DNA of 28,846 bases from a virus. The stretch lies in IMG/VR virus record IMGVR_UViG_3300031576_000238, positions 1 through 28,846 of that record, one strand, 5' to 3'. This document shows, one piece after another, positions 517-26,616 of this stretch (its first letter is position 1; the number at the start of each line of letters is the position of its first letter). Both the position numbers and the translations under genes were made by a program. The notes beneath the pieces were generated by a model that made no database searches, was not told the origin of the DNA, and saw nothing but the letters and a program-made list of their open reading frames with translations.

Positions 517-860
517 AGAAATTTAAGTCCTACTTAGACACTAAGCCTGGGCAGTTAAAACCAATTCAGCAAAAAGAATCTGAAATGCCGGAAGTACGCA
601 AAATTGTATTAGAAAACAAAACTGCAGAAGAACGAATTAAGAAAGAAGTGGAAGATATTAAGAAGCTAGATGAAACTCCTGATAGACGGTACATTGAAGA
701 AAAGATGGACAGTCTTCAGAGTGAAGTTAGACTTCTAAGGGAACAATTTGGAGCAATCCAAGAGAACCTTGAACTTCTTCTTGAAACTAATATAAGACTT
801 CGAGAGTTTTTGGCACAGCGAGAAAAGTCTAAGCTAAAGAGGTTATTTAAATGGCTGTAA
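495..860 (+). CDS. Coiled-coil protein of unknown function
   Basis: A 121-aa protein starting at GTG 495, with GGAG at 481-484 placed about 10 bases upstream; the start lies inside the previous gene. The sequence is highly charged. Residues about 63-115 show heptad-like spacing of Leu/Ile (MDSLQSEVRLLREQFGAIQ onward), predicting a long helix or coiled coil, and the C-terminus is basic (KSKLKRLFKWL). No catalytic motif is visible. Its position directly before neck genes suggests a minor structural, scaffolding or accessory role, but I do not recognise the family. Confidence 0.7.
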   Translation: MATKDLIKKFKSYLDTKPGQLKPIQQKESEMPEVRKIVLENKTAEERIKKEVEDIKKLDETPDRRYIEEKMDSLQSEVRLLREQFGAIQENLELLLETNIRLREFLAQREKSKLKRLFKWL

Positions 861-2140
861 CTATAAGTTTTTCATCTCCTGGGAATCCCCCGCACAATAT
901 AGTCAGCTTTCGAGTTGAACGAAGTGTGCGTCCAGCCGCAGGTTCTATTGCGCTGGTAGGTGATGTAAATAACGTTACTAAGGTAGTCATTGTTGCTTTC
1001 TCAGGTCCTGTGCCTGCAATAGGAGCATTAGCTGGCGACCAAATGCACATTGGGGGAACTTTATATAGAGTTCTTACTAACACTGCAACTACAATAACGT
1101 TTACAGCCGACACAGATCTTTCTACTATTGTGTCTTTTCCTGCTGCATTTGTCATTGTAAATGACTTAGCAGAGTTTTCTAGTTTTGAATTTGTAGGATT
1201 AGTCAGCCCTACACTACCATTCCCAGCTACGTTGGTTCATCAATTTAATGATCCTACTGGAACTCAGTTTGACTTTTATCAAGTTAAAACTATAGATTCA
1301 GGCGGAAATATAAGTCTAGAGCCATTAACTAAGCCTTTTAGACCAGGGCAAGTTATCACTCTTGCAATTGATGAAATCAGAAAAGCCCCTAAAGATAGTC
1401 TTACAGGAATCATTGGTGGGAGTATTACTTTTGAAGTAGAAGTAATAGTTGGTGGTAGACGACAAGATCCAAAGGATAATGTCGTTAATGCTGAAATTTT
1501 TATCCCCTCTTACTTGGCTCCTGATGGTCAATTTAGAGTGGTTGAATCAATCGTAATGGCAAGGGTAGGTCCTGCAAGATACAGGGCTACTTGGGCAGTA
1601 CCAACAAACATTAGCAATCCGTTTGGTAACTTCACAGTATACCCAGCCGATGATTACGTAGTCTCTTATAAAGCAAATTTCATAGGGTTAGTTGGCTCTG
1701 CGCCAGATAGCTTCATCGAGTTTGCTAGTGAAATGTTTACACTTGTAGCAAGTGACGGACCTATCTTCGGAAGGTTTCCTTCTTATGCAAGTGTCGAAGA
1801 TTTAAGACAGACTTTATTTGAAATTGATGCTTACCTACCAGAATCAATTCCAAAGACAGACCTAAATGGTAGGAATAAGGTGCTTCAATACCATATTGAA
1901 CGTGCTTCTGACAAATTACGTGAAGAGTTGAATTACCACCAACTGAGGGGTAATTCTTCAGATCGTCAAGAGTATGTATCAGTTAGATCAATATATACGT
2001 TATTGATGGCTGCTCGTGGGCAGAACTCATCTGCTGTTTCAGACAAGTTTCTGGAACAATGGGAGAAGAGAGCAATCTATATCTTGGCTCAATTGAAACG
2101 AGAAGGGGTAGCTCAGGGTATTCCTCTAGGTAGAGGTTAA
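851..2140 (+). CDS. Neck protein: beta-domain N-terminus plus helical adaptor-like C-terminus
   Basis: A 429-aa protein. Residues about 30-105 carry a small beta domain with GDQMHIGGTLYRVL, similar to a domain repeated in the sheath. Residues about 190-300 are beta-rich and Ig/fibronectin-like. Residues about 310-418 switch to all-helical sequence (SVEDLRQTLFEIDAYLP; VLQYHIERASDKLREELN; FLEQWEKRAIYILAQLK), the size and character of a head-tail connector of the gp6/adaptor type. It sits immediately before tail-completion and terminator candidates, where connector proteins are usually encoded. The start overlaps the previous gene by 10 bases, with AAGAGG upstream. The connector role is inferred from order and helical pattern; the beta domains are unusual for that family. 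Confidence 0.7.
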   Translation: MAVTISFSSPGNPPHNIVSFRVERSVRPAAGSIALVGDVNNVTKVVIVAFSGPVPAIGALAGDQMHIGGTLYRVLTNTATTITFTADTDLSTIVSFPAAFVIVNDLAEFSSFEFVGLVSPTLPFPATLVHQFNDPTGTQFDFYQVKTIDSGGNISLEPLTKPFRPGQVITLAIDEIRKAPKDSLTGIIGGSITFEVEVIVGGRRQDPKDNVVNAEIFIPSYLAPDGQFRVVESIVMARVGPARYRATWAVPTNISNPFGNFTVYPADDYVVSYKANFIGLVGSAPDSFIEFASEMFTLVASDGPIFGRFPSYASVEDLRQTLFEIDAYLPESIPKTDLNGRNKVLQYHIERASDKLREELNYHQLRGNSSDRQEYVSVRSIYTLLMAARGQNSSAVSDKFLEQWEKRAIYILAQLKREGVAQGIPLGRG

Positions 2141-2141
2141 T

Positions 2142-2771
2142 ATGGACTGGGTGCTCGAAGTCGAAGGTGCAGAAGAAGTTGAACAATTTCTTGCACACTT
2201 AGAGCCAAGACTATTAGAAAATTTATTTATCGGTTTTAAAGAATACGCAAAGCGTTACTTAGTACCGAGAATTAAAGCTCGTTTAGCTCAAGCAGCTCAA
2301 CCCCATCAACCCTCTAAAATGGGTCTAGATGGTCAACCAAGTGCAGGTGGTGGTTACGGTGTCCCCAGTAACTCCACCAAATATGCAGAATGGAAGGCTT
2401 CACGCTCTAATCTGCCACTAGTCGGGACTTTATCTTCGAGAGAACTGGTAGCAACCGGCTTTCTTGTTGAATCAATAGACATACTAAAGCTAGAGAAGCT
2501 GATGGATGGTTTTACCATTGAAGTTGGTCATAAACCAGGAATGCGACCTACAGCAACTCCACATAGCAATAATCCGCCTGGTAGTAACCAAGCTGATGTA
2601 TCTAAGGTCGTAGAAAATACCCAATTAGCAGAATGGATAGAAGATTCTAAATATGCGTTTTGGGTGACAGAATACGAAGACGTTATGAGAAACATAGAAC
2701 CCCTAGTCTTAAGTATTCTGAAAAAGACAATCCACCAATTGTGGTCTGAATATGTCAAGAAAGTAGCGTAA
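2142..2771 (+). CDS. HK97-gp10-like tail completion / neck protein
   Basis: A 209-aa protein. Residues 1-50 are helical and resemble the N-terminus of HK97 gp10/phage virion morphogenesis proteins, with a basic helix (PRIKARLAQAAQ). A Gly/Pro/Ser-rich loop follows (54-75), then YAEWKASRSNLPLVGTLSS (81-99), which matches the family pattern in which a substrate-like 'Y..WK....PL...G.L..S' segment precedes beta strands. The C-terminus (about 160-209) is helical and aromatic. Such proteins complete the head-tail joint. It begins 2 bases after the previous stop and shares one base with the next start, so the neck genes are probably co-translated. Confidence 0.7.
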   Translation: MDWVLEVEGAEEVEQFLAHLEPRLLENLFIGFKEYAKRYLVPRIKARLAQAAQPHQPSKMGLDGQPSAGGGYGVPSNSTKYAEWKASRSNLPLVGTLSSRELVATGFLVESIDILKLEKLMDGFTIEVGHKPGMRPTATPHSNNPPGSNQADVSKVVENTQLAEWIEDSKYAFWVTEYEDVMRNIEPLVLSILKKTIHQLWSEYVKKVA

Positions 2772-4219
2772 TGGCTCGACAGTTCGCAAGGATACTAAAT
2801 GACATTGAGGAAGCTCTTGCTAGAGAAGTTCGCAGAATTATATTTTTCGAGACAAGAGATAGAACTCCCCAAGATGTCGCATTTAGAGAAATGTTTGATC
2901 CTTTCACTGGGGAACTTGTAAAGAAGCCCATTGAGCCTAAATTTTTTGATGATACCGCAGATGCTACAATATCCACAAGTCCAAGATTCTCAGTTAGACT
3001 TTTAAAGTTATATGAAGATCTTGAGACAAATAGATTGCTCCCTCCTTATGGAAACGAATTGGTAGAGGTTTTACCTTCACCAGCAGCGTATGAAGTTGTA
3101 CTAGGAGGTCCAGATGCAATCACTACCAATGGTGGTGGAGATAGCACAGTTGAGATAACTCACCGTGAAATTCTCTCAGTTACTAATACTCACATACTTA
3201 GACTTATTACAGGTAGTAATCAAGGAACATACCGAATTGCGTCAATAACGCTAAATGGAAATGGTCCTCATACAATTACCCTTAGTAATGATTTGTTAGT
3301 GGCTTTGCCTGACTTTGACTATAATAAAGATGCTGGTATAGTAACTTTTAGGGAATTTACAGATTTACAAGCAGTAAGAGCAGGAGATACAATCGTAGAT
3401 GCTGCACTTACCTCGTTTGTTATTACAGCGGTAAATGCTTTTAACTCAACTCTCTCCGTAGCTCCTGGCAGCACTATAGCTAGTGGTGTAGGTGCCAAAA
3501 TTAATAGAGCAGGAAACGTACTACAGAATGATGATTTAGGTGAAGAACAATGTTACCTAATATTAGATCCCTCACAACCTATCATAGGCAGGGGAACTAG
3601 ATATCAAGTAAGTAGTCAGTTAATTCCTTATACGTTCTTGTACTTTATTAAGATATCTTCAAGAGAAAGAGACGAGCACATCTCTATTGCAAATAGAATG
3701 ATGCAAGTATTTAATCCTCCACGAGGTTCTCTGTTCACAGTTATTAGAACAGAAACATCTTTTGAATCAGAGCTTCTTAAAGATGTAAACGTAGGAGATA
3801 AAGTTATATACGTAAAAGATGCTACTAAGTTTTATGTGAATGATCGAGTTAGGTTGTTCGATGATTTAGAACTTGGTGAAGATCTTGTAATAAAGAGTGT
3901 AAATTTAACTAGCAACGCAGTTACTGTTGTAACACCTGTATCTAAACAGTATACAGCAGATCACTGTGCTAGACTAGTTAGTAACTTTTGTATTGCAATT
4001 CTTGAAAGAGATTTTAAGAATCACGTAACAGAAGATAGAGAAGAAAGCCAATTTTGGATTCATAGATTCACCTACCGTATTGAAGGTTGGGTTGATTCTA
4101 GAATTCCTCCTTATACTACAGAACAGATTTCTGAAGATCAAGGGGATGTAAATTTCGTCGGTATAGTATTAGAAGATTTTGAGGGGAATATACTTGACGA
4201 TACTGGCCTAGTGCCATAA
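2771..4219 (+). CDS. Virion neck protein, probable tail terminator with inserted beta domains
   Basis: A 482-aa protein. It has an N-terminal helix with an acidic segment (1-50), then an inserted 'GD' beta domain at about 188-232 (AGDTIVDAALTSFVITAVNA) like those in the sheath, and a second GD-type segment near 341-400. Between them, residues 276-320 (SQLIPYTFLYFIKISSRERD) followed by a helix, and the later strand FWIHRFTYRIEGWV (428-441), look like the alternating strands and helix of tail terminator proteins. Its position just before the sheath is where terminators (lambda gpU, T4 gp15) are encoded. It is much longer than usual (terminators are often 130-270 aa), which the inserted domains would explain. 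A role in neck assembly is likely; the exact function is inferred. Confidence 0.65.
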   Translation: MARQFARILNDIEEALAREVRRIIFFETRDRTPQDVAFREMFDPFTGELVKKPIEPKFFDDTADATISTSPRFSVRLLKLYEDLETNRLLPPYGNELVEVLPSPAAYEVVLGGPDAITTNGGGDSTVEITHREILSVTNTHILRLITGSNQGTYRIASITLNGNGPHTITLSNDLLVALPDFDYNKDAGIVTFREFTDLQAVRAGDTIVDAALTSFVITAVNAFNSTLSVAPGSTIASGVGAKINRAGNVLQNDDLGEEQCYLILDPSQPIIGRGTRYQVSSQLIPYTFLYFIKISSRERDEHISIANRMMQVFNPPRGSLFTVIRTETSFESELLKDVNVGDKVIYVKDATKFYVNDRVRLFDDLELGEDLVIKSVNLTSNAVTVVTPVSKQYTADHCARLVSNFCIAILERDFKNHVTEDREESQFWIHRFTYRIEGWVDSRIPPYTTEQISEDQGDVNFVGIVLEDFEGNILDDTGLVP

Positions 4220-4231
4220 CATGGAGGAGTC

Positions 4232-4522
4232 ATGCAGAAATACAAAAACGTCTCTAACGATACATTGCATTTAGATAGCATGACACACACTATTCATTTA
4301 AGTCCTGGGGAAACAATGACTCTTCCTGCTTCGCGGGATGTTAGATATTACTCTGGGTTGAAAAAATTAATAGTAGTTAGAGACAATAAACATGAGGGTA
4401 AACCTCGTGAATTACCGAGGTTTTCAAAACCAAAAGTAATAAGTAAAAAGCCTAAGTCTTTTAAGAAATTAGAAGACAAGGTTGATATTAACAATGAAAA
4501 TAATGAAATGGAGAACAAATAA
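4232..4522 (+). CDS. Small protein with basic tail, upstream of sheath
   Basis: A 96-aa protein. Residues 1-48 look like a compact beta domain (YKNVSNDTLHLDS, then LSPGETMTLPASRDVRYYSG), and residues 50-96 are a Lys-rich, probably disordered tail. GGAGGAG lies just before ATG 4232, and the stop overlaps the sheath start by one base. Small proteins of this kind often sit between neck and sheath genes in myophages, but I do not recognise a named family. No membrane segment or enzyme motif is seen. Confidence 0.7.
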   Translation: MQKYKNVSNDTLHLDSMTHTIHLSPGETMTLPASRDVRYYSGLKKLIVVRDNKHEGKPRELPRFSKPKVISKKPKSFKKLEDKVDINNENNEMENK

Positions 4523-7113
4523 TGGCGGCTGATTTGCTTAATACAAATATTGGCCCAGAACGCATTGAAGTTATCTCCCAACCAACAGGAGTTATACCGA
4601 TTCCTGGGGTTTCTACAGCGAATACAGCGTTTATTCTACGCAGTTCGTTGGCAGACGCACCAGTGGATTTCCCTGTTGAAGTTCTTAACCTCGACTCTTT
4701 TGTAGAGCAGTTCGGGGATGAGGATGAATTGGGGTTGGCTTACTTTGCGCTTCAAGGCTTTTACGCCAATGCTGGATCGGGTAATAAAGCCATTATCGTA
4801 AATATAGCTCCAACTGCGTCTGGTTCACAAGTTGATGAAAGAGGCGTGGCAGAAGTCGGGGCCGGTGGGTTTATTGAGGATGAGAACGAGATCGTAACAG
4901 GTCTTGCCGTCTCAGGCTATACCCCAGCGACTGGCTTACTGTCCTTCTCAGGATTACCAAACTTGTCACTAGTTGAAGTCGGTGACTTTTTCAAAGACGA
5001 TAATGGAAGATTATTCCTAATCTCTGCGGTAGATGATGCTGCAGATACACTAACGATTCCAGCAAATTTGAATGCTGGCAGTCCAATTTACTCAGCAGGA
5101 GGCTTAAATACAGCTTCTGTTGCTGGTAAAGTCCTACGCTTGTTTGATGCTGATGAGCACAACTCAAAAGCACTTATTCAAGAAGGTGCCCTTAAAGGGG
5201 CAGTGATTGTAACCGCAGTTTCAAACCGAGAAGTAACTGCTTCTGCTGGTGGTTTCCTAAATATGGGAGCCAGAGTAGGAGATTTACTCTTGGATTTTGC
5301 TTCTGCTCTTTTCTACATTACATCAGTAATTGATGATGACAAAGTAGAAGTTGATAGAGCTGGAGCTGCTTTGGGTGCGGCTAGTGTTAAAACTGGTGTA
5401 GTAAACATAATTCAAGACACAAAGAGAAGCTCAAGTAATAATGCTTCAGTATCCCCACAGAACAGCGTTCCGTTTGCGAGTTCTGGTGCAGGATTCGGAT
5501 TACTTCCAACATCAGTTGGACCATATCCGGCTGGCAGTTTAAACCAGCATTTTATGACCCTAAATGGAGAAGAGAAAGAAATTCTTTCTCAAATAATCGT
5601 TGCAAGTGGTACATTGAATGTTCTCTTCGGAACTTCGGTTAATACCTTAGTTTATACCTCCGCGACTGGACTTGTTCAGTTTGCTGGTTTAGAAAATCTT
5701 TCAACTGTTTCCCCTGGTGACGTATGGCGTGATGCAAGCAATAACGACTTCGTAATTGATGCCGTTAACGATGCAGGCGACAATATCACGATTGCAAAAG
5801 GACAAGTAGTAAATACGGCTGCTGGTTCTACAATTCGTGATGGGCAAGTGCGAATCAATTTACTTGATTCAGCATTTAACCCAGGAACTGCGAACATCCC
5901 AACCTTTTTTGAGCCAGCGAATGAATTAGATATTCCGGCTACATCAAGTGGTGCTGCTGATGATTACTTCATTGCAGATGCTATGGTCCAAGATTCGGAC
6001 TTTATTGGGACACAAGCTAATGGTAAAGGGCTTCATGCTCTTGACCGAGTTGACGATGTAAACTTAATCTGTATGCCCGAAGTAACAGGTAGAGCACTTC
6101 AAAATGCCCTAATTGATTATTGCGAAACAGGTAGGGATGATTGCTTTGCACTTATCGCTGTCCCTCGTAATATTACTAACGCGGTTGTAGATAGAGTCAA
6201 AGTCAATGTTACTATAAGTACCATTACTGTTGGAACTAGCTCCAGCACTGTACTCTTTTCAGGAAGTCCAAATCTTTCTGCAGTTGCAGTTGGTGACTTG
6301 TTAGATTTCAATGGTTCTAAGTACCTAATTCTTGATGTTGATGACCAAGACGACAAAGTAACAGTCGAATCAACTTCTATTAGCGGGTCGGGTTCAGCGG
6401 CTATCGTTGCACCAAGCGCCATTACGTATAAGGAGATTATAGTTAATAATCCTAGTAAACGTGCCGCATGGTATTTTAACTTCGTGAAAGTCCTTAGACC
6501 TTCCGATAGTTCTATCGTGGTTGTTGATCCTTGTGGCTATGCCGCAGGAGTGATGGCTCGAATTGATGCTAACACGGCGATTGGTGGAGTAAGTCATGCC
6601 CCAGCAGGTATCTCATTTGCTGGTCTAGCAGACACAGTAGGACTTGATTTGAAAGTATCAGAAAAAGAAGATGCTGGTCCATTAAGACTAAATAGGATTA
6701 ACCGAATTACAGAATTCCCTGGTGCCGGAAGATTTATCTTCGGTGGTTACACTGCAGACAGTGGAACCTCTCCTGCATTTACTGCAGAGGAACAGTTGAT
6801 TCAAGTAATCAGAGCTAATCTCTTTATTAAGGGATCTCTTGAAAGAGGCTTACGAAGCTTCATTTGGGAGAACTTCTCACCCGCGACCCAATTGCAGGTT
6901 AAAAATGCTATTGAGTCATTTTTGCGGAATAACTCATATCTCTTCCCCGCTGGTCTTCCAGAGAAGGAACAGTTTAGAGTAATTGCAGTGGATACCACAG
7001 CAGAAGCTCTAGCCAAGGGATTAATGAAGTTCCGTGTTCAAGTACGTACAAACGTTGGATTGAGATTCATAGAGATCGCTCTTGAGTTTCCAATTCCGCA
7101 GGCACAAGGATAA
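4522..7113 (+). CDS. Contractile tail sheath protein
   Basis: An 863-aa protein that would form the contractile outer sheath. The N-terminus has PGVSTANTAFILRSS and a strand/helix pattern typical of sheath subunits. The C-terminus carries the conserved sheath core: LNRINRITEFPGAGRFIFGG (723-742), RSFIWENFSPATQLQVKNAI (778-797) and a final strand pair ending FIEIALEFPIPQAQG, used for subunit interlocking. T4 gp18 is 659 aa and P2 gpFI 396 aa, so this sheath is large. The excess is largely four related insertions at about residues 136-184, 240-282, 381-428 and 573-619, each with a GD dipeptide and an aromatic/Ile-Val strand. Such insertions would be expected on the outer surface of the tail. 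The start overlaps the preceding stop by one base and the tube gene follows directly. Confidence 0.95.
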   Translation: MAADLLNTNIGPERIEVISQPTGVIPIPGVSTANTAFILRSSLADAPVDFPVEVLNLDSFVEQFGDEDELGLAYFALQGFYANAGSGNKAIIVNIAPTASGSQVDERGVAEVGAGGFIEDENEIVTGLAVSGYTPATGLLSFSGLPNLSLVEVGDFFKDDNGRLFLISAVDDAADTLTIPANLNAGSPIYSAGGLNTASVAGKVLRLFDADEHNSKALIQEGALKGAVIVTAVSNREVTASAGGFLNMGARVGDLLLDFASALFYITSVIDDDKVEVDRAGAALGAASVKTGVVNIIQDTKRSSSNNASVSPQNSVPFASSGAGFGLLPTSVGPYPAGSLNQHFMTLNGEEKEILSQIIVASGTLNVLFGTSVNTLVYTSATGLVQFAGLENLSTVSPGDVWRDASNNDFVIDAVNDAGDNITIAKGQVVNTAAGSTIRDGQVRINLLDSAFNPGTANIPTFFEPANELDIPATSSGAADDYFIADAMVQDSDFIGTQANGKGLHALDRVDDVNLICMPEVTGRALQNALIDYCETGRDDCFALIAVPRNITNAVVDRVKVNVTISTITVGTSSSTVLFSGSPNLSAVAVGDLLDFNGSKYLILDVDDQDDKVTVESTSISGSGSAAIVAPSAITYKEIIVNNPSKRAAWYFNFVKVLRPSDSSIVVVDPCGYAAGVMARIDANTAIGGVSHAPAGISFAGLADTVGLDLKVSEKEDAGPLRLNRINRITEFPGAGRFIFGGYTADSGTSPAFTAEEQLIQVIRANLFIKGSLERGLRSFIWENFSPATQLQVKNAIESFLRNNSYLFPAGLPEKEQFRVIAVDTTAEALAKGLMKFRVQVRTNVGLRFIEIALEFPIPQAQG
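4927..6378 (+). repeat. Four diverged copies of a small GD domain inside the sheath gene
   Basis: Protein-level repeats encoded at about 4927-5073, 5239-5367, 5662-5805 and 6238-6378. Three copies begin with a phrase like LLSFSGLPNLS, LVQFAGLENLS or VLFSGSPNLS, then V..GD, a polar turn, a strand such as FLISAV, FVIDAV or YLILDV, an Asp-rich turn and a final strand (TLTI, NITI, KVTV). The second copy keeps only the GD-strand-turn part. At nucleotide level they are well diverged, so these are old domain duplications rather than recent repeats. Confidence 0.8.
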
Positions 7114-7124
7114 GGAGATAACCA

Positions 7125-7676
7125 ATGGCAAGAACAGGTAAAATAGACGCTATTGAAAAATTCCGATTCACTGTCGCCTTCACGGGACTGGGTAGAGCGG
7201 GCTTTAGCGAAGTATCAATTCCTAAGTATACTATTACTAAAGGCGAATACAGAGAGGGTAATGCCCCTGATAACGTTCAGCTCTTTCCAGGGCTAACGCG
7301 AACAGAAGACGTTGTTCTTTCTCGTGGTTCGACCACAAGTCAGGATCTTTATGAGTGGTTAAGATTGGTATTTGATCCTGAAAAGCTTCCCAATGGCTTA
7401 CCACAAGCTGGACAAGGCCAAAACCAAGTCCCACTTGGGAACACAGATGACTATCGTAAAGAAGTAACAGTTACGCTGTTTCGTCGAAACGGAGTCCCTG
7501 CAAAACAATGGGTTCTCAGAAACGCATTTCCAATCGCGTTTCAGCCTGGTTCAGACCTTAACGCAAACGAAGATGGAGAAAAGTCAATTGAACAAATCAC
7601 TTTGGCTTACGAAACCTTCGAGGAAATCTCAGGCGTTGAGATCTCTGCACCATTAGCTGGTGAGAATCAAGAGTAA
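7125..7676 (+). CDS. Major tail tube protein (gp19-like)
   Basis: A 183-aa protein of the T4 gp19-like tube family (also the Afp1/Pvc1 family). Signs are the opening DAIEKFRFTVAFTGLGRAGF, SEVSIPKYTITKGEYREGN, the PGLTR..DVVLSRG strand, and the late NEDGEKSIEQITLAYETFEE. It would stack as hexameric rings to form the rigid inner tube through which DNA passes. It directly follows the sheath, with AAGGAG upstream, and is followed by a strong hairpin. Seven of its ten Asn codons are AAC, against four of ten and one of six in its two downstream paralogues. This fits it being the abundant tube subunit. Confidence 0.92.
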   Translation: MARTGKIDAIEKFRFTVAFTGLGRAGFSEVSIPKYTITKGEYREGNAPDNVQLFPGLTRTEDVVLSRGSTTSQDLYEWLRLVFDPEKLPNGLPQAGQGQNQVPLGNTDDYRKEVTVTLFRRNGVPAKQWVLRNAFPIAFQPGSDLNANEDGEKSIEQITLAYETFEEISGVEISAPLAGENQE

Positions 7677-7684
7677 ATAAATAG

Positions 7685-7719
7685 GTTAGGGAGGGGGCTT
7701 AATCGCTCCCTCCCTTAAC
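7685..7719 (+). terminator. GC-rich hairpin after the major tube gene
   Basis: A perfect 10-bp stem, 7689-7698 with 7705-7714 (GGGAGGGGGC / GCTCCCTCCC, one G-U pair), closes a 6-base loop TTAATC. The stem extends by four more pairs (7685-7688 with 7716-7719) across one bulged T. A short TTT follows (7720-7722), so it is a weak intrinsic terminator at best. It may instead act as a partial terminator, or protect the 3' end of sheath-tube mRNA so these two genes are expressed more strongly than those downstream. It is the strongest hairpin I noticed in the window. Confidence 0.7.
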
Positions 7720-7733
7720 TTTCGGAGGAAAAT

Positions 7734-7880
7734 ATGCCATATAAGTCGGATGCACAAAGAAAGTTTTTTCATACAGCCAGTGCTAAAAAAGCTGGAATTA
7801 CTAAGAAACAAGTAAAAGAGTTTGATAAAGCTTCAAAAGGAAAGAAACTTCCTGCGAAGAAAAAAGCAAAAAAGAAGTAA
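7734..7880 (+). CDS. Small basic protein (MPxKSxAQRxFF type)
   Basis: A 48-aa protein with ATG at 7734, preceded by a good site (CGGAGGAAAAT). It starts MPYKSDAQRKFF, has a helical middle (GITKKQVKEFDKASKGKKLP) and ends in a run of Lys and Ala. Short proteins beginning MPxKSxAQRRFF and ending GKKLP plus Lys are common, uncharacterised phage and prophage proteins. Lys makes up more than a third of the residues, so nucleic-acid or membrane contact is plausible, but the function is unknown. It lies between two tube paralogues, just downstream of the hairpin. Confidence 0.8.
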   Translation: MPYKSDAQRKFFHTASAKKAGITKKQVKEFDKASKGKKLPAKKKAKKK

Positions 7881-7895
7881 TTTTAAGGTGGGTAA

Positions 7896-8498
7896 ATGGC
7901 TAGAACCTCATCAGTTGATGCAATCGAGAAGTTTCGATTTAACGTCTTCATCCTAAATATATCATTGGACCCAGTGTCCCTTGTTACTAATTTTACGGGA
8001 TTTTTGAGGGGCGGATTCTCAGAGGTTACCTTACCGAGACAAACTACTGGAATCATTGAGTATCGTGAAAATGTAGATGCGGCTCACCCCAGTTTAATAC
8101 CAGGGCTAACTAGATATGATTCAGTTTCCCTAAAAAGAGGAGTTACGGGAAGCTCAGATTTTTTGAGATGGGCTAATAACGTACACGATCCAAACCAACT
8201 AATAGCCACGGCCATTCAACGAATGCGTGGAGATCCTAATGAATCCCCTCCATCAGAGAGTTTAAACTTTCGGAGGGATATTTTAATAGTCGCCTATGAT
8301 AGAGCAGGAAAACCTACTAAGGGGTGGTTACTCCGAGATTGTTGGGTCACTTCCTACAAACCTGGCGACGATATGTCAGCCACTGAAGATGGTGCCAAAT
8401 TAATTGAAGAAATAGAGCTACGTTATGAGTCTTTTGAAGAATTGACTCTTGAAGCTCTAGTCAGCGGCACCTTCAATAGTTTATTAGGAGCATTATAA
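7896..8498 (+). CDS. Tail tube paralogue 2 (gp19-like, possible tube initiator)
   Basis: A 200-aa protein clearly related to the main tube gene: both open MART..(I/V)DAIEKFRF and share GFSEV, EYRE, PGLTR and the late ATEDG..LIEEI.L.YESFEE block. It has an extra 10-15 residues near the N-terminus (LDPVSLVTNFTG) and a hydrophobic C-terminal tail (SGTFNSLLGAL). In contractile systems extra gp19-like proteins form the first rings between baseplate hub and tube (as Afp5 does, and T4 gp48/gp54 functionally). That role is likely here but inferred. The stop overlaps the next ATG by one base (ATAATG). Confidence 0.85.
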   Translation: MARTSSVDAIEKFRFNVFILNISLDPVSLVTNFTGFLRGGFSEVTLPRQTTGIIEYRENVDAAHPSLIPGLTRYDSVSLKRGVTGSSDFLRWANNVHDPNQLIATAIQRMRGDPNESPPSESLNFRRDILIVAYDRAGKPTKGWLLRDCWVTSYKPGDDMSATEDGAKLIEEIELRYESFEELTLEALVSGTFNSLLGAL

Positions 8499-9052
8499 TG
8501 TCAAGAAGTAGTGGTTTTGATCCATTGGATAGGTTCCGATGGAAGGTATATGTATTTTCACCTGCTGGAGCACTTTGGGCTAGAGCTGGATTCACCAGTT
8601 GTACTACGCCTGATGTTACAGTTAATTTTAAGACTTATCAAGAAGGTGGAAGGCATATGATGCCACGAAAGATACATGATAGTGCTGGTTTTTCGCCTAT
8701 AACCCTTGCAAGAGGAGTTATTGCTAGGCAGGGATCTGATGATTTTGCTAAGTGGATGAATGACCTATTTAAGGTAACTCACCAAGAGCCAGGGGCAGCA
8801 GATGCTCCAAATTATAGGAATGATATTGTAATTGAGCACTTGGATAGAGATTCTACTGTAGTAAAACGATATGTACTGTTTAACTGTGTTCCATCTCATT
8901 ATAAACCAGCTTCCGATTTCAGTGCTTTAGATGAGGCTGAAATTAGCGTTGAGACACTTTCCTTTGAGTACGAAGGTTTCAAAGAAGAAAGAGTAAATAG
9001 TCTCGAAGATGTTGGTGATTACGTTAGAAGATTTACTAGAGGTATCTTTTAA
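8498..9052 (+). CDS. Tail tube paralogue 3 (gp19-like, possible hub-tube adaptor)
   Basis: A 184-aa protein with the same fold signature: FDPLDRFRWKVYVF at the start, FTSCTTPDVTVNFKTYQEGG, SPITLARGV, and ISVETLSFEYEGFKEE near the end. It is the most diverged of the three tube homologues and has the lowest AAC use for Asn (one of six), which suits a low-copy protein. It is coupled to paralogue 2 by a one-base overlap and lies directly before the assembly chaperone. It most likely makes one of the tube-initiating rings contacting the gp27-like hub. The order of the two adaptor rings cannot be told from sequence. Confidence 0.82.
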   Translation: MSRSSGFDPLDRFRWKVYVFSPAGALWARAGFTSCTTPDVTVNFKTYQEGGRHMMPRKIHDSAGFSPITLARGVIARQGSDDFAKWMNDLFKVTHQEPGAADAPNYRNDIVIEHLDRDSTVVKRYVLFNCVPSHYKPASDFSALDEAEISVETLSFEYEGFKEERVNSLEDVGDYVRRFTRGIF

Positions 9053-9079
9053 CACAAACTTACAAGTTATGGAGGAATC

Positions 9080-9820: not shown

Positions 9821-9999
9821 TTCCAACAGAGTACATCAGCCACAAAACTGATCTTTTGAACGATTACGCCTATCTGGGACAAGCTTTCAGATGGGGTCCA
9901 GATCAGATTGATTACTTAGGTTGGACTTACCGTAAACAACTCGTAGAAGACCACAGACAAGCTATGAAAGAGGTCGAGAGACGTGCCAAGTCCAAATAA
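9080..9999 (+). CDS. Frameshifted tail assembly chaperone (-1 product)
   Basis: If the ribosome slips -1 on TTTTTTC (9787-9793), the first 238 residues of the preceding gene continue into an otherwise start-less open frame to TAA 9997-9999, giving a 306-residue product. The 68-residue extension begins RPVADPFNIIPTEYISHKTD and is rich in aromatic and charged residues, with YLGQAFRWGPDQIDYLGW in its middle; it looks like real protein. The frame has no ATG until 9964, so independent translation is unlikely. The tape measure GTG lies inside the last codons. This matches the lambda gpG/gpGT arrangement (known) where the long form links chaperone to tape measure. Slippage itself is inferred. Confidence 0.78.
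9787..9793 (+). promoter_or_regulatory. -1 ribosomal frameshift slippery heptamer
   Basis: T TTT TTC in the phase of the chaperone gene (codons TTT 9788-9790, TTC 9791-9793) fits the X XXY YYZ rule for simultaneous -1 slippage. After slipping, the next codon is CGT 9793-9795 in the open frame that ends just inside the tape measure. A small hairpin, GTCC 9794-9797 with GGAC 9804-9807, follows at once, but it is short and closer than typical stimulators. AAAAGGAG at 9747-9754 is further upstream than a classical Shine-Dalgarno stimulator. Confidence 0.78.
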
Positions 10000-12088: not shown

Positions 12089-12090
12089 AT

Positions 12091-12819: not shown

Positions 12820-13142
12820 TGGCAAATTTTAGACCAGGATCAAGATATACAAATGGAACATTCACGAATACCGAAGATAACAAGTCTTTCTTGTTACTTA
12901 GGAATCGACTAGAAGTTCCTGAATCTGGTCAAGATATTTTCCTTACTGTTGAAGGCAGACATCTTAAAAGGCCCGACCTAATAGCATCAGATACATATAA
13001 AAGAGTTGAATTATTTTGGGTTATTATGGATATCAACAATATTCGACAGCCATTGTTTGATTTAAGAGTAGGACAGCAAATAAGAATTCCTCCTTTAAAC
13101 AATGTTTTGGAAGCTATCGAAAAATTAAACGCAGAGGGATAA
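12819..13142 (+). CDS. gp53/LysM-like baseplate protein
   Basis: A 107-aa protein. The core runs YKRVELFWVIMDINNIRQPL then LRVGQQIRIPPLNN. This is the 'rlWWviAd.NnI.dP....G..l.iP' pattern of LysM-like baseplate proteins (T4 gp53, P2 gpX, C-terminus of Afp7), which use the fold for packing in the baseplate rather than for peptidoglycan binding. It is coupled by one base to the CIS-tube-like gene and lies 1 base before the hub gene. Length and position fit a minor wedge/hub clamp. The N-terminal 30 residues look flexible. Confidence 0.75.
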   Translation: MANFRPGSRYTNGTFTNTEDNKSFLLLRNRLEVPESGQDIFLTVEGRHLKRPDLIASDTYKRVELFWVIMDINNIRQPLFDLRVGQQIRIPPLNNVLEAIEKLNAEG

Positions 13143-13143
13143 T

Positions 13144-14820
13144 ATGGCTTTTATAGATCTAGCTCTAATGAGAGATCCATACTTTGAAGTCCGTATAGGC
13201 CCTCCAGGTGCTCAAGATAAAGACTTAATACCTCTAAGTCCAGAGGTTCACGCGCTCATAGACAGTTTTGAGTTTAATGAGATGCGAGATGGCGGTAATG
13301 GATCAGCAAGCCAAATTAAACTTGTGTTTTATGAAGATTTGAACAGAGCTGGATCAGTTTTAGACTTAGTTCTAGATAAAAGCGGCCCAGGTTTAATCAA
13401 ATTTTTAAGTCCTGAAACTGTTGCTACAGGAAAGCAAGAGCAAAAGGCAGTAGAGCAAGCAGCATCTGAACAAGGAAAAGATACCTCTGACCCTAAGAAA
13501 AGTGGTGAATTAAAGAAGTCACTAGAGAAAAGGGTAACCGATTTAAAGAAAAAACAAGCTGAAGATGCCCCAACTTTCATGCTTCAAGAGAGAAATACAG
13601 TTCAAGTTACATGGGGCTATCGGACAACAAGCAGTAATAGTAAACTCCACCCCCGAACAGTTAGAGGAGAAATTCTTCAAATAACTCATAGGGCATCAGA
13701 AGGAGATATTCCTGTAACAGAGATAAATGCTGTTGATTTCGGTAGTGGAGAAATGTCTAAACTTTATCCTGTTGAAGGAAAGGCATTCACCCGTGGAATA
13801 GTAAAGCAACTTCTTGGGGGATATGGGCTTCTTGATAAAAGTAGTAGACCAGATACTGCTCCTGCTAGACTTGATGATATTGTAAGAGCAATCGCTTTAG
13901 GGGGCATAATTCTTAATGCAGAGACAAATATTGATCTTACTGCAGAAGAATTAAAACTTGATATACAAGATGAAACAAGTTCTAGAACATGGGCTACTCA
14001 TACAAATTTACATGGTTTTTTAAAAGGTCTTGCTGAAAAGATTCATGCTCATTACTTTGTTACCTCTCATTCAGTTGGTGGGCAACTTAAAGTAGTCCTA
14101 AATCTTATCTCAAGACGAAAGATTGAAGGAAGTAACAAGTTCCGATTTATATGGAAAGGTGGAGCACAAGGTATCAATAGTGGAGACCAAAACTCACTTT
14201 CATATAATACAGTTTTAAATTACAATCTCCAACTATACCCTGGTGGAGGAGAAGGAGCAGCATCTAATGGTGTTTGTTCTGAAGAGAAACAATTAGTAGG
14301 GCATGTTGCTACAACCTCTGTTCAATTTAGAACTAACATGGGTAAACCGGCTGCTAATTTAAAAGTTAAAGAGCCTGGTAAAGGACAAGCTGCAAAAGTA
14401 GTAGATCCAAAACAGCAAAAAGCAGCAAATGCTGTTGGTATCTCAACATATAATGCTTCGTGTTCCCCTGAGAACCATGTGGCAGAAGCTGATAGAATTG
14501 CTGGTAGAATGGACAAAAGCCTTCGGCTTGAGTTTAATACTATCGGTATTCCACAACTTCAACCAGGCGTTATAGAGATGCAAAACATCGGACAAAGGTA
14601 CAGTGGGCTTTATTACCTATTAGGGGTTACCCATAAAATCAGTGCTGATGATGGATATACCTGTAATTGTGTTGGAGAGTCTAATAGCGTTTCAACTGGT
14701 GGAACATCAGTAGTAGCTCCTCCTGTTAGAAATGATTTGGCTGAACAAGTTAGATTAGGATTTAGAGGAGATAAAGAATTAAGTTTATCTAATCTTGAAA
14801 AAGTAAAACAGGGGAAATAA
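13144..14820 (+). CDS. Baseplate hub protein (gp27 / gpD-like)
   Basis: A 558-aa protein with the layout of T4 gp27/P2 gpD/VgrG N-terminal hubs. It has an N-terminal beta domain (PYFEVRIGPPG; DSFEFNEMRDG), a second strand set ending TEINAVDFGSGEM (about 192-204), a helix-containing FTRGIVKQLLGGYGL block (215-229), a HGFLKGLAEKIHAHYFVTS segment, and a late SGLYYLLGVTHKISADDGY (about 482-500) typical of the domain that sits on the spike. It would form the trimer that joins spike to tube. A charged, Lys/Glu-rich insertion (about 95-142) looks helical or disordered and is not part of the usual fold. The spike gene follows 2 bases later. Confidence 0.83.
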   Translation: MAFIDLALMRDPYFEVRIGPPGAQDKDLIPLSPEVHALIDSFEFNEMRDGGNGSASQIKLVFYEDLNRAGSVLDLVLDKSGPGLIKFLSPETVATGKQEQKAVEQAASEQGKDTSDPKKSGELKKSLEKRVTDLKKKQAEDAPTFMLQERNTVQVTWGYRTTSSNSKLHPRTVRGEILQITHRASEGDIPVTEINAVDFGSGEMSKLYPVEGKAFTRGIVKQLLGGYGLLDKSSRPDTAPARLDDIVRAIALGGIILNAETNIDLTAEELKLDIQDETSSRTWATHTNLHGFLKGLAEKIHAHYFVTSHSVGGQLKVVLNLISRRKIEGSNKFRFIWKGGAQGINSGDQNSLSYNTVLNYNLQLYPGGGEGAASNGVCSEEKQLVGHVATTSVQFRTNMGKPAANLKVKEPGKGQAAKVVDPKQQKAANAVGISTYNASCSPENHVAEADRIAGRMDKSLRLEFNTIGIPQLQPGVIEMQNIGQRYSGLYYLLGVTHKISADDGYTCNCVGESNSVSTGGTSVVAPPVRNDLAEQVRLGFRGDKELSLSNLEKVKQGK

Positions 14821-14822
14821 CT

Positions 14823-15806
14823 ATGAGTGTACGGGTTAAAAATTGGATGGGCGAGGCAGTTTATCTTGGCCCATCTAAAGCTATAGTCATAGATAATAAA
14901 GACCCTTCTAAAAAAGGACGAATCAGAGTTAAAAGTCCTGTTTTTGGAGATACTGCTTTTATACATTATGTTTATCCAGATGATGGATTCTTTGGTCCTC
15001 CTGATGTAGGCTCTATTGTTTATATTGTTCCAGATGGTGGTGATCCAGACTTTTTAATAGCTTGGGCTACCATTAACGATGGAGATAGAGTAAATCCAGA
15101 TACAAGACTTCAATTTAGACGAGATGTGCCTACCAATCGTGGTTGGGCATCTCCTGGGGATCTTGAAGGTTCTGGTAAACCTATAGGGGTTAATGCAGGG
15201 CATCTGTTTGAAATGGATGATGGGATAGCAATGGTTGCTTCTAATGGCACCGTTACCCATACTAAAGAGAAAAAAGGAATACGTTTCACAACCTCTGGTG
15301 GGCATTTTTTAAAGATGCTAGAAGAGGAAACTGCTGGAGCTACGCAGAATAGAGTTGAATTAGGTTCAATTGGTGGGCATAAGTTCTCATTATATGATGA
15401 GGCTTCACGCTCTAGTAAGCTACAACGAGCAGAGATAAGCACAACTGGTGGACAGTTTTTGTCCCTTATTGATGATGCTGATTCTGTTAAACAACAGGTA
15501 ATTTTAAGAGATGTCGATAACAGAACTATTGAAATCATCAAAGAAAGTGATCGTATCCGCATTAGAAATTCGGCTGGTACGATTTTTATTGATATCGACT
15601 TTGCTAATGATATTATTGAAATTGATGCAAATAATGTAAAAATAGGTACTGCGGCAGCAGAAGCCCTAGTTAGAGGGGATACGTTTAGAACGTTATTCAA
15701 TGCTCACTTCCATCAAACCGGAACTGGGCCAACTTCTCCTCCAGTTGTACCGATGGACCCTTCATCAGCAAATACGCATTTATCTAGTCACCATACAGTG
15801 GAGTAA
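14823..15806 (+). CDS. Central tail spike (gp5/gpV-like), no lysozyme domain
   Basis: A 327-aa protein. Residues about 18-100 form an OB-fold: IDNKDPSKKGRIRVKSPV, then the strand pattern DVGSIVYIVPDGGDPDFLIA. From about 125 a repetitive beta region carries GHLFEMDDG, GGHFLKMLEE, GGHKFSLYDE and GGQFLSLIDD spaced about 25 residues apart, as in the gp5-type beta-prism/helix. The C-terminus has AHFH (294-297) and GPTSPP. An HxH near the tip of P2 gpV binds iron (known); the same role here is inferred. Unlike T4 gp5 there is no lysozyme insertion. It follows the hub, as expected for the hub-spike complex. Confidence 0.87.
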   Translation: MSVRVKNWMGEAVYLGPSKAIVIDNKDPSKKGRIRVKSPVFGDTAFIHYVYPDDGFFGPPDVGSIVYIVPDGGDPDFLIAWATINDGDRVNPDTRLQFRRDVPTNRGWASPGDLEGSGKPIGVNAGHLFEMDDGIAMVASNGTVTHTKEKKGIRFTTSGGHFLKMLEEETAGATQNRVELGSIGGHKFSLYDEASRSSKLQRAEISTTGGQFLSLIDDADSVKQQVILRDVDNRTIEIIKESDRIRIRNSAGTIFIDIDFANDIIEIDANNVKIGTAAAEALVRGDTFRTLFNAHFHQTGTGPTSPPVVPMDPSSANTHLSSHHTVE

Positions 15807-15809
15807 ACT

Positions 15810-16010
15810 ATGTCTCAACCAGTAAGTACACTTGCTGCAAATCTTAAAGCAGCGTTTGATGCAGAATATGCAAAACAAGCTCCAGGTGAGCAAGGAATGA
15901 TGACAGCTTTATCAAATGCAATGGCTACAGCTATTGACAGTTTTGTAAAGTCTCATAATGCTACTGGGAGCGATTCTGGCGGCGATTCACACAATTTAAC
16001 GATAGTATAA
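15810..16010 (+). CDS. Small spike-adjacent protein, unknown
   Basis: A 66-aa protein with GGAG shortly before ATG 15810. Two helical Ala-rich segments (STLAANLKAAFDAEYAKQA and ALSNAMATAIDSFVKSHN) are followed by a Gly/Ser/Asp tail. It lies between the spike and the gp25-like wedge, where other contractile phages often encode a similar small helical protein. It has no PAAR motif and no transmembrane segment. Function unknown; low-copy baseplate component or assembly factor are both possible. Confidence 0.7.
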   Translation: MSQPVSTLAANLKAAFDAEYAKQAPGEQGMMTALSNAMATAIDSFVKSHNATGSDSGGDSHNLTIV

Positions 16011-16011
16011 T

Positions 16012-16398
16012 ATGGCGACACCCTTCTTAGGCAAAGGTCTTAAATTCCCAATCAATGGTAAGTTTTTACCTGAAGATGGGATACAAAAAGTAATAGAGAG
16101 TATTCAACTTCTTCTTCTAACTAATTTAGGAGAACGAGTTATGCGCCCTACTTTTGGTAGTAACCTTGGTGCTAGAGTTTGGGAAAATCTAGATTTTATA
16201 TCTAGACAAGGGCCTTCTGATATTGCTACCTCAATTAGACGATTTGAACCTCGTGTAACATTAATTGAAGTGGCTCCAGTAATTCGGAGATCAGAGGGTT
16301 TAGTGTATTTCCATATAAGATTTCTAGTTAAAGAGGCAAACGTGGAAGCAAATCTTGTGTTTCCGTTTAAGCCTTCTTCTCAGATTAGTACGAGATAA
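16012..16398 (+). CDS. Baseplate wedge protein (gp25/gpW-like)
   Basis: A 128-aa protein of the T4 gp25 / P2 gpW family. The diagnostic segment is LLLLTNLGERVMRPTFGSNL (about 34-53), in which the GERVMRP.FGS motif is nearly invariant, followed by helices and a strand pair (RFEPRVTLIEVAPVIR; GLVYFHIRFLVK). Gp25 forms part of the wedge core and nucleates sheath assembly at the baseplate. Length is typical (about 110-135). It starts 1 base after the previous stop and is followed by the J/gp6-like wedge gene, the usual pair. Confidence 0.92.
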   Translation: MATPFLGKGLKFPINGKFLPEDGIQKVIESIQLLLLTNLGERVMRPTFGSNLGARVWENLDFISRQGPSDIATSIRRFEPRVTLIEVAPVIRRSEGLVYFHIRFLVKEANVEANLVFPFKPSSQISTR

Positions 16399-16409
16399 GG
16401 AGCCGACTA

Positions 16410-19400
16410 ATGGCGAATATTCGCTCCATAGATTATGTAGCTAAAGATTTCGATTCTATCGTCGATGCACTAATTTCGTTTGCGACTGTTAATTTTGGTC
16501 CAACTACGAATGCAAATAGACAATGGACAGACTTCAACGCAGATGATTTCAGCCGTACTTGGTTGGAGTTATTAGCTTACGTTGGCGACTTAATTTTCTT
16601 CTATCTTGATATTCAAGCGACCCAAAGTAATCTTGTAACTGCTACAATTCGTAAGAACGTTTTAGACATAGCGAAACAATTTGGTTTCGTTGTATCTACT
16701 GCTTCTTCCGCATCTGGAGTAGCCAAGTTTAGTTTGAGCGCACCAGGAACTATTCCAGTAGGTTTTAGAGTATCTGCTGAGAATGGGCAAGAGTTTTTCA
16801 CATCTAGTAGTTCTCCGATTCCAGGGTCTACTATTTTTGAAATCTTCTTACCTGTTGTTCAAGGTGTCCAGAGAGAAGAAACTTTTATAGCTAGAGGAGT
16901 ACAAAATGAAGAGATTACGTTGGGTGTTACTGGATTGGTTATTGACACTACAAATCCTATTTCATCCCTTATCTCACCAAGCGTTATTGTTAACGCCGAT
17001 GTTTATGAGTTAGTAAACACGTTTATCAGAAGTTTTCCAACTGATAAGCACTTCAGAGTCTTGGTTGATCCTGAAGGTCGAGCAATTATACGATTTGGTG
17101 ATGGTATTTTTGGAAAGCAACTTACCCCTAATGATGCTATTGAAGTAGATTATAGAACTGGTGGAGGAGCAGCTGGAAACATTCCTGCTAATACACTAGT
17201 AACTTTACTCGATGCATCTAGCTTCGTTAGTGCTGTTAGTAATGATACAGCCTTTAGTGGTGGGGCAGACGAGCCTTCTCTTGCTCAATTAAAAGAGTTA
17301 GTTCCTGCATCTTTGCGTACATTAGAGAGAGCAGTCACTACAAAAGATTATGCAGACATTATCTTAGTTAACTTTAATAGTGTATCTAAGGCATCTGCTG
17401 CAAATAATATTTCAGATCCTGGTGTTGATGTTGATATCTTTGTGGTTCCTTCTGGTAACTCAATTACTAAGATTACTGACAATCTACCTTTGTTTAATGC
17501 TATCTCAGACTTTATAGATGAGAGAAAACCAGTAACAACTGTGTTCAAGATTCTTGACGCATTTGGTATGGATGCACTACTTAAGATAGTAGTTTTCCTA
17601 TCAGCTGGTGCTTCTAGATCATTAGTACAATCAAATATGACAACTGCATTAGACGGTTTCTTCTCTTTTAATAGTGGGGATGTAGACGGTACAGGCACTA
17701 AATTTGCTCAAAAAGTACGTTTAAACGATCTTTATGACCTTATAAGTGCTATTGAAGGTATCGAAAGATTTGAAATAACAAAGCTTCATTATAGGCCGCG
17801 AGTTGAACCTTTGGTTGCACTTGGAACCAATTACCTTATTTCTGAAGTTGAAGTATTCCAAAATGCTGAATCATCTGAGTGGTTAATCGGGGCAAACTCA
17901 AACATTGATACTCCAAATTTTAATAGTTACACGGTATTTAAGAAATTTCCAGGGCGTGTAAGTAACCTAAGTGAAGGAAGTTTAGCAGATGATACTCTAA
18001 ACTTTTCAGTAGTTGAAAGCACCGCAACAGGAATAAATATAGATGGAACTACTAATATTCTATTTGATTTAAATAAAACATTTCTAGTAGATGAGTTTGT
18101 TGGAGGTACTTCAGTTATAACTCTTAGTAATCTATCAGGTTTTACTTTCGATCATATTGGGTCATCTTTTATCCCAAGAGTGGGAGATCGAGTTATCCAG
18201 GGCGGAAATACTGCTAGAATCATTTCTGTTGTTGACTCAGATACTTTTGTAGTATCAAATGGATTTCCTTTAAATCTTGTGAACGGTGCCGCAACCCTAA
18301 AAAGAGATGAATTTCTTCTTGTAGATGCTTCGGGCAACGTATGGGCAATCGAAGATAATGATGCTCATTCGCTTGTATTGTCAGCTTTTGCTATTAACAA
18401 TACGATTGTTTCTGATGTGTCCGGTGGAGCGTACAAAATTGTAAGAAGTTTAATCGGCAAAAACCTTATATTTCATGACCTTATTTTCGCAGGAATTGAG
18501 TATAACAACAGTAATACCATTTTTAGAGCAAGTTCAAGTTTTAACCTTGTAGGAACAATCGGAGATGAATTCTTTGTTTCTGAACCACAAGACAATATTG
18601 GAGACTTTGGGCTTCCATTAACATTAGATGATTTCACCCCTAATACACCAGCGGCTGGATATGGGGAAGTACATTGTGCTGGTAATGCTGATTTAAGTAC
18701 AATTATTGGCGGACCTAGTAGTAATTTTGTGCTTATTGATACTAATTTAAATGTTTATGAGATTGTTTCAATAAATAATTTAGCAAAGACTATTGTTATC
18801 TTGCACGATGCTACAGTTACTCCCGCGCCTGCGGTAGGACTTCCATTAGGACCTACATCAACAGGCAAAGCTGCTTCTGCCGTAAAACGGTATTACAGTG
18901 ATGACAATGAAGTAAGTTTTGTAATAGGATTAGGCAATAGACCAAGTGGACTAGGATTTCAAGCTGTAGGAGCAATCTCCTTTGCAGTCAGAGATGTTCC
19001 AACTAGTGGAGCTATTAGATTTGCTAACGTAGTTACTTTGAATACAGTAACTCCTCATCCATTTGTAGTAGGCCAAACCATCCAAGTAGCAAATATGACA
19101 GATGGTACTTTTAATGGTACGTTTGTTATCGTAACTACGCCTACTTCAAGTGCTCTTACTTATGCTCAAATAGCAGCTGATGCAACAAGCGGAGATGGAA
19201 ATATTTCTTTAACAGGAGCGAATATTGCAGACGGTACGTTGCTTAAACTAAAGGACTCAACTGCAAATCCTGAGACAACGTTTGAATTTAACAAAACAGG
19301 TGGAGTAGCTTTCGGCAACGTTGCTATTACCTATGCTGATGCAAGTGACTCTGCAGCCCTTAAATCGGCTGTCATTTCAGCAGTAAATGGTGCCCCATCG

Positions 19401-19763
19401 TTAGGAATCACTGCAACAGATGGTACAGGACTTTCTGGACCAGATGAAGTAGTATTTCTACAAAATGATAACACTGGGTCAGATGGGAATCAAGGTATCG
19501 TAGATACAATCGCAGAACCTGGCGTAACTATCGCAGGAATGTCTGGTGGTATCGGAAGTGGACATAGTGTCCCAACGCCCGTAATCCCAAATCCTGGCGA
19601 CAATGTAACTGATTTAGGTATTTCATCGGATGGGACAACCGTGGATCACTTTGAATTTAGAATTTCTGGATTCGTCGATGACATCGTTAACTTGAGAAAT
19701 AGTGAAATTCCTCAAGTAGATGACGACGATATTGAACTTGACTTTAGAGGAGGGGTAACATAA
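16410..19763 (+). CDS. Baseplate J / gp6-like wedge protein with long C-terminal extension
   Basis: A 1117-aa protein; AAGGAG precedes ATG 16410. Residues 1-460 are a gp6/J-type wedge: RTWLELLAYVGDLIFFYLDI (49-68), then IIRFGDGIFGKQL (226-238), DYRTGGGAAGNIPANTL (248-264) and SLRTLERAVTTKDYADI (301-317). P2 gpJ is about 300 aa and T4 gp6 about 660, so over 600 residues are extra. The extension has a GD beta domain (PRVGDRVIQGGNTARIIS), further beta segments to about 870, a TPHPFVVGQTIQVANMTDG module (about 870-936) and a TFEFNKTGGVAFGNVAITYA module (about 957-1050) ending MSGGIG. It ends in an acidic tail. The extension may replace a separate gp7/I protein or anchor fibres; this is inference. 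Confidence 0.85.
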   Translation: MANIRSIDYVAKDFDSIVDALISFATVNFGPTTNANRQWTDFNADDFSRTWLELLAYVGDLIFFYLDIQATQSNLVTATIRKNVLDIAKQFGFVVSTASSASGVAKFSLSAPGTIPVGFRVSAENGQEFFTSSSSPIPGSTIFEIFLPVVQGVQREETFIARGVQNEEITLGVTGLVIDTTNPISSLISPSVIVNADVYELVNTFIRSFPTDKHFRVLVDPEGRAIIRFGDGIFGKQLTPNDAIEVDYRTGGGAAGNIPANTLVTLLDASSFVSAVSNDTAFSGGADEPSLAQLKELVPASLRTLERAVTTKDYADIILVNFNSVSKASAANNISDPGVDVDIFVVPSGNSITKITDNLPLFNAISDFIDERKPVTTVFKILDAFGMDALLKIVVFLSAGASRSLVQSNMTTALDGFFSFNSGDVDGTGTKFAQKVRLNDLYDLISAIEGIERFEITKLHYRPRVEPLVALGTNYLISEVEVFQNAESSEWLIGANSNIDTPNFNSYTVFKKFPGRVSNLSEGSLADDTLNFSVVESTATGINIDGTTNILFDLNKTFLVDEFVGGTSVITLSNLSGFTFDHIGSSFIPRVGDRVIQGGNTARIISVVDSDTFVVSNGFPLNLVNGAATLKRDEFLLVDASGNVWAIEDNDAHSLVLSAFAINNTIVSDVSGGAYKIVRSLIGKNLIFHDLIFAGIEYNNSNTIFRASSSFNLVGTIGDEFFVSEPQDNIGDFGLPLTLDDFTPNTPAAGYGEVHCAGNADLSTIIGGPSSNFVLIDTNLNVYEIVSINNLAKTIVILHDATVTPAPAVGLPLGPTSTGKAASAVKRYYSDDNEVSFVIGLGNRPSGLGFQAVGAISFAVRDVPTSGAIRFANVVTLNTVTPHPFVVGQTIQVANMTDGTFNGTFVIVTTPTSSALTYAQIAADATSGDGNISLTGANIADGTLLKLKDSTANPETTFEFNKTGGVAFGNVAITYADASDSAALKSAVISAVNGAPSLGITATDGTGLSGPDEVVFLQNDNTGSDGNQGIVDTIAEPGVTIAGMSGGIGSGHSVPTPVIPNPGDNVTDLGISSDGTTVDHFEFRISGFVDDIVNLRNSEIPQVDDDDIELDFRGGVT

Positions 19764-23250: not shown

Positions 23251-23251
23251 C

Positions 23252-24931: not shown

Positions 24932-24933
24932 TC

Positions 24934-26613: not shown

Positions 26614-26616
26614 CCG

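Follow-up and report, generated by a model that had tools for sequence, protein, structure and literature searches.

Tailed-phage structural proteins reportedly bear Ig-like domains, as Fraser et al. are said to have described in 2006. That phage structural proteins can have domains in common is already known, as is the presence of additional domains on tail sheath proteins, the latter being treated in the cited part of the sheath review by Evseev et al. (2022; PMC9230969). In the portions of the structural reports cited here, the extra domain 3 of the Streptomyces sheath is described as flexible and located on the sheath surface (PMC10066040), and domain 3 of the Halogeometricum sheath is described as the most variable part, with domains 1 and 2 facing inward (PMC11566945). 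For phage 812, the cited portion of the report describes an accessory beta-sandwich domain of the terminator that binds the sheath, with terminator-sheath and sheath-sheath interfaces that are alike (PMC12886913). Among the papers listed by our literature searches, none was seen to describe a domain family that a single tail has in its terminator, its sheath, and its wedge alike, with both fixed and swapped copies.

The window analyzed here is a 28,846-base viral record, the phage having an environmental sample as its sole source. It has tail genes of a contractile-tailed phage, namely, neck genes, a probable terminator, the sheath, three tube genes, baseplate genes, and fibre-like genes. An earlier note, made from the letters of this DNA, had pointed to a small beta domain marked by a GD turn (hence, GD domain) in neck, terminator, sheath, and wedge proteins and had read it as a common decoration, a surface for cell binding, or one for contact between proteins. 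Of this proposal, the homology among sheath, terminator, and wedge stands, and a likely surface location of some of the sheath copies fits decoration; membership of the neck protein is not supported, and the wedge segment that the note had named (VGDRVIQ) is suggestive only. Judged by sequence similarity, one homologous domain is reused in the sheath, the terminator, and the wedge, as well as in fibre-like proteins of relatives.

Relatives of the window locus were found on 32 other viral contigs. No relative of the window sheath or terminator was found among named phages, where two single GD copies likewise had no match at E values up to 1, and none was found in the bacterial and archaeal genomes scanned. 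Two further groups of paralogs were observed in the window. Three related tube genes lie in tandem at 7125 to 9052 (27 to 41% identical), and several relatives likewise have three related genes 3' of the sheath. At 19765 to 28209, three fibre-like proteins are 32 to 35% identical across about 550 residues. All four proteins encoded there also have a short recurring module, some 45 to 60 residues in length.

Recurrence in the sheath and the probable terminator

The protein with four copies is identified as a sheath by its C-terminal core, which matches sheath families (Table 1) and, as a profile of the relatives, the solved sheath 8bl4 (E = 3.1e-24), and by a sheath fold predicted from its N- and C-terminal parts together (VIA against 9gtp; rmsd of 6.0, 314 aligned, model range 31 to 844). 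Each of the four segments was omitted in turn and sought with a profile built from the other three, with the reversed window proteins as a control. All four copies that the earlier note had distinguished were recovered in this manner, the best match to a reversed protein having an E value of 0.065 across the four runs. The domain spans about 75 residues and is predicted to be all beta.

Table 1. Positions in the window of the proteins and segments discussed, with the evidence for each
Feature	Positions	Strand	Evidence
Neck segment named earlier, not supported as a copy	953..1150	+	Out-of-register weak matches; hhalign within shuffles
Probable tail terminator	2771..4219	+	Named solely from its position between neck genes and sheath
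GD copy T, terminator residues 177-254	3299..3532	+	BLASTP E 4e-5 to sheath copy 3; four-copy profile E 1.6e-7; 33/33 contigs
Tail sheath protein	4522..7113	+	phrog_23 E 1.2e-26; VIA Z 28.0 to Streptomyces contractile system sheath
Sheath insert of ~390 residues (~96-489) with copies 1-3	4807..5988	+	Missing in short sheaths (alignments); site of the long inserts of 8bl4 and 9ezm
GD copy 1, sheath residues 123-210	4888..5151	+	Leave-one-out profile E 7.5e-15; 10/33 contigs
GD copy 2, sheath residues 225-302, most diverged	5194..5427	+	Leave-one-out E 6.3e-4; 10/33 contigs
GD copy 3, sheath residues 366-451	5617..5874	+	Leave-one-out E 1e-12; 10/33 contigs; single-domain model core pLDDT 84-96
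GD copy 4, sheath residues 557-646, in short sheaths too	6190..6459	+	Leave-one-out E 5.9e-12; 32/32 sheaths reaching that point
Baseplate wedge protein, long C-terminal extension	16410..19763	+	Baseplate_J E 2.8e-16; phrog_219 E 2.6e-27
VGDRVIQ segment, wedge residues 563-633, small insert	18096..18308	+	10.4 bits alone vs null top of 12.0; missing in G003
Diverged GD copy, wedge residues 746-809	18645..18836	+	hhalign 26.1 vs <=18.1 in 30 shuffles; E 5.4e-4; aligned with relatives' clearer copies

The claim of a copy in the probable terminator was borne out both by direct comparison with sheath copy 3 and by the profile seeded with all four sheath copies, which recovered the terminator in the window (best reversed match, 0.84) and in the first six relatives (E values of 4.5e-10 to 4.1e-5). 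The terminator itself had no match in the PDB up to an E value of 1 and weak matches in PHROGs to unknown families only. An iterated profile search was then made over the 2,011 reading frames of the 32 contigs and the window proteins with a cutoff E value of 1e-3. It retrieved 94 domains, which, among the matches listed, all lie in the sheath or the terminator; the best reversed match was 0.32, and the wedge and fibre genes were scarcely represented in the loci searched.

Across the window and its relatives, the terminator copy occurs in every one of the 33 contigs and copy 4 in all 32 sheaths long enough to include its site (one contig ends before it), counts that are inflated and reflect nonindependent events, as several of the contigs are near-copies of one another. 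The faintest copy 4, that of 32893_86, has an E value of 0.002 in the iterated search and 8.3e-8 in a whole-record profile search. For these two copies, which every relative has kept, a structural role seems more apt than an optional one.

Wedge copies, and the neck segment as an unsupported candidate

A whole-record search with a profile built from sheath and terminator copies only also matched wedge homologs, with E values down to 1e-16. Among 13 wedge homologs from relatives, some of them cut short, all had at least one copy at an E value of <0.05, and several had three. Fibre-like proteins of several relatives also bear a copy. In the window wedge, the copy at residues 746 to 809 is diverged and fell short of the 0.05 cutoff in the wedge-homolog search. 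It was nevertheless retrieved by a profile without any wedge copy, it exceeded all 30 column shuffles in hhalign (Table 1), and, once wedge copies of relatives were included in the profile, it reached 23.2 bits, where the null did not exceed 12.0. The wedge extension does contain a copy, as had been claimed, at a place other than the one named. The VGDRVIQ segment scored 5.9 bits within the whole protein and rose to its best score when searched alone, below the top of 3,000 shuffled 100-mers; it may be regarded as a suggestive candidate.

In an alignment of ten wedge proteins, the window's included, small segments are present or absent as whole units. The clade of the window is without the first and third wedge copies, the relative G021 has an additional copy adjoining the third, and the VGDRVIQ segment, a clean inserted segment, is missing both in the relative G003 and in the other clade. 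The middle wedge copy is present in both clades. A further wedge stretch of about 70 residues (18975 to 19214), largely missing from the relative G001, gave matches to phrog_9998 (E = 7.6e-5) and to a tail fibre family.

The first neck protein (851 to 2140) was dropped as a family member despite the likeness of its residues by eye. Its best profile matches are out of register (3.3 to 7.8 bits), and its hhalign score of 20.2 lies within those of 30 shuffles, which reached 21.9, so the earlier claim of a copy there is not sustained. The segment is part of an N-terminal extension (851 to 1375; roughly 175 residues), which more distant relatives are without and which had no family match.

The behavior of the neck and VGDRVIQ segments bears on the reading that there is no common domain at all and that the likeness is a chance one among short hairpins of beta strands with GD at the turn. 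The pattern is indeed short, and these two by-eye look-alikes score no higher than shuffles. The sheath-terminator matches, however, have E values of 1e-7 or better with clean reversed controls, the copies recur at the same positions in relatives, and wedge copies are found at up to 1e-16 by a profile that contains none. With the neck and VGDRVIQ segments set aside, chance resemblance is already contradicted for the sheath, the terminator, and the wedges of relatives, and we consider it very improbable as a general account.

The sheath insert site and the history of the copies

Sheath copies 1 to 3 form a cassette within an insert whose distribution is patchy. The 10 contigs that have them comprise eight from the clade of the window and two near-identical distant ones. 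The 23 without them fall into 3 in which that site is occupied by an insert of another kind, about 120 residues long, 3 with another insert immediately before copy 4, and 17 with neither, whose sheath reading frames are 467 to 492 residues long (sheath alignment A4, with 25 nonidentical locus rows of the 32 contigs plus the window). The insert of about 120 residues (L022:10286-10654, similar in L023 and L025) had no Pfam or PHROG match. A segment of the window's fibre-like protein (21319 to 21654) and a sheath insert of L039 (12073 to 12462) both match phrog_28344 (E values of 5.2e-5 and 9e-4, respectively), which suggests that sheath and fibre have a second domain in common.

When the sheath family profile was placed on solved sheaths, the Streptomyces (8bl4) and Halogeometricum (9ezm) proteins proved to have their long inserts directly after profile position 94, which is the place of the window's block of about 390 residues. 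From their residue ranges, these inserts would correspond to the published domain 3. The position of copy 4 is a second stretch where 8bl4 and 9ezm have far fewer residues. Since the site of copies 1 to 3 is thus the loop that bears a surface domain in related contractile systems, these copies most likely coat the sheath exterior in the window phage, which fits the proposal of decoration.

In a tree of 100 copies (all 94 locus copies and 6 from the window), there is a single group for the terminator copies, another for copies 1 of the sheath, and another for copies 2, suggesting that copies have mostly been inherited in place. Copies 1 and 3 group with those of the terminator and the wedge; copies 2 and 4 group together. 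Derivation of all sheath copies from one expansion of copy 4 was considered and set aside, since the tree favors two groups; yet a topology test did not reject a single sheath clade (P = 0.221), and the cassette may have arisen by duplication or may have come from another gene.

The tree also bears on the idea that the fixed copies form a like-with-like series of contacts, in which the barrel that one sheath disc offers to the next would also be offered by the terminator to the first disc and by the wedge at the other end. In its favor, copy T of the terminator and copy 4 of the sheath occur throughout, and both clades have the middle wedge copy. The interfaces of phage 812 also favor it: in the cited portion of the report, terminator-sheath contacts resemble sheath-sheath contacts, and the sheath is bound by an accessory domain of the terminator (PMC12886913). 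However, terminator copies and sheath copies 4 lie on opposite sides of the copy tree, and the middle wedge copy is strongly diverged, and we regard such a series as unlikely. A related scheme, in which the fixed copies would touch one another along the whole tail, from the neck through terminator, sheath, and wedge to the baseplate, and would help to transmit or lock contraction, the sheath cassette being the same unit freed for decoration, appears to us to be just as doubtful.

Predicted fold, likely roles, and comparison with known systems

The sheath model (mean pLDDT of 66.7) has an identical strand order in all four copies, and a single-domain model from 95 copies is all beta, with a well-scored core (Table 1). 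We read the GD domain as a small, independently folding all-beta unit, probably with a barrel shape. The alignment of copies (A7) holds 90 of the 94 locus copies and 5 window copies, four being omitted. With the single-domain model, Foldseek gave a phage tail tube first (E = 8.7e-3), followed by the JBD30 hub (8rk3_b; E = 0.10) and ATPase chains, and the best match in a viral structure library was a tail fibre protein (E = 2e-3). VIA Z scores reached at most 7.5, with lambda gpJ residues 490 to 567 at 6.5 (rmsd of 2.9, 70 aligned), a range that is common for chance arrangements. The best match of a PDB profile search with the family was residues 492 to 541 of JBD30 gp53, at a nonsignificant E value of 0.094; this and the Foldseek signal are two weak signals that agree in pointing to the same protein, no more.

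Family searches with 52 of 53 cluster representatives (alignment A6; one sheath copy of L039 omitted) gave scattered weak matches in Pfam and PHROGs and no firm name for the domain. The Ig-like family PF13205 (Big_5) was matched by 3 of the 52 copies (best E value, 0.001) and phrog_8121 by 4 (best E value, 3.1e-4). No Ig chains were among the structural matches listed by Foldseek and VIA. In view of the Big_5 matches, the domain may nevertheless have an Ig-like origin.

The main rival to a structural and coating role is adhesion, a role proposed for phage Ig-like domains: copies of the GD domain on the sheath, at the neck end, and on the baseplate would bind cell-surface glycans or debris and keep the phage near its host. 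Copy number is variable, copies 1 to 3 are likely at the surface, the fibre-like proteins of relatives also bear copies, and the cited part of the sheath review suggests this role for extra Ig-like sheath domains (PMC9230969). Against this, no known binding family gave a good match, and the copies kept in every relative are located in terminator and sheath, not in adhesins alone. We regard adhesion as a possible role of lesser likelihood than the reading favored next.

With modest confidence, we favor a reusable accessory tail domain, the fixed copies of which would be structural and the variable ones displayed on the sheath surface. A unit of about 75 residues would have been reused as a plug-in within the tail proteins of this myophage group. 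The old fixed copies (terminator, sheath copy 4, and probably the middle wedge copy) would most likely make contacts between adjacent tail subunits, a role rendered plausible by the terminator-sheath binding and like interfaces of phage 812. Sheath copies 1 to 3, the outer wedge copies, and the fibre copies would have been gained and lost at insert-tolerant loops, with copies 1 to 3 most likely on the sheath exterior, where they may stabilize it or provide weak adhesion.

Pfam and PHROGs have no more than weak, scattered matches to this family, whose distribution offers a clear natural record of how domains were gained, lost, and replaced at a single loop of the contractile sheath. The attachment of outer domains at that loop appears to be general among contractile machines. 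The division into fixed copies and those added or swapped hints at how contractile tails acquire outer decoration without breaking the machine, and, with one domain common to terminator, sheath, and wedge, the idea of contact surfaces shared along a single tail becomes testable.

Like the phage Ig-like domains, the GD domain is an accessory beta domain in several unrelated virion proteins (here, sheath, terminator, wedge, and fibre-like proteins) that is gained and lost between relatives; unlike them, its top structural matches are not Ig chains, and some of its copies are fixed in every relative. Any likeness to siphophage tail hubs (JBD30 gp53 and lambda gpJ) would lie in their small barrel domains, which are among its weak matches; JBD30 gp53, the best PDB sequence match and the second Foldseek match, is significant in neither. 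With the phage 812 terminator, for which the cited portion of the report shows sheath binding (PMC12886913), the window's probable terminator has in common an accessory beta domain, whereas there is no sequence link between the two and the window protein matches no solved chain. Domain 3 of contractile injection system sheaths, as described in the cited portions (PMC10066040 and PMC11566945), is an insert at the same place in the chain as copies 1 to 3, a comparison of sites only, made with a profile that aligns just the sheath core. In contrast to the additional sheath domains treated in the cited part of Evseev et al. (PMC9230969), the inserts of the window sheath are repeats of one family, which also occurs in the terminator and the wedge.
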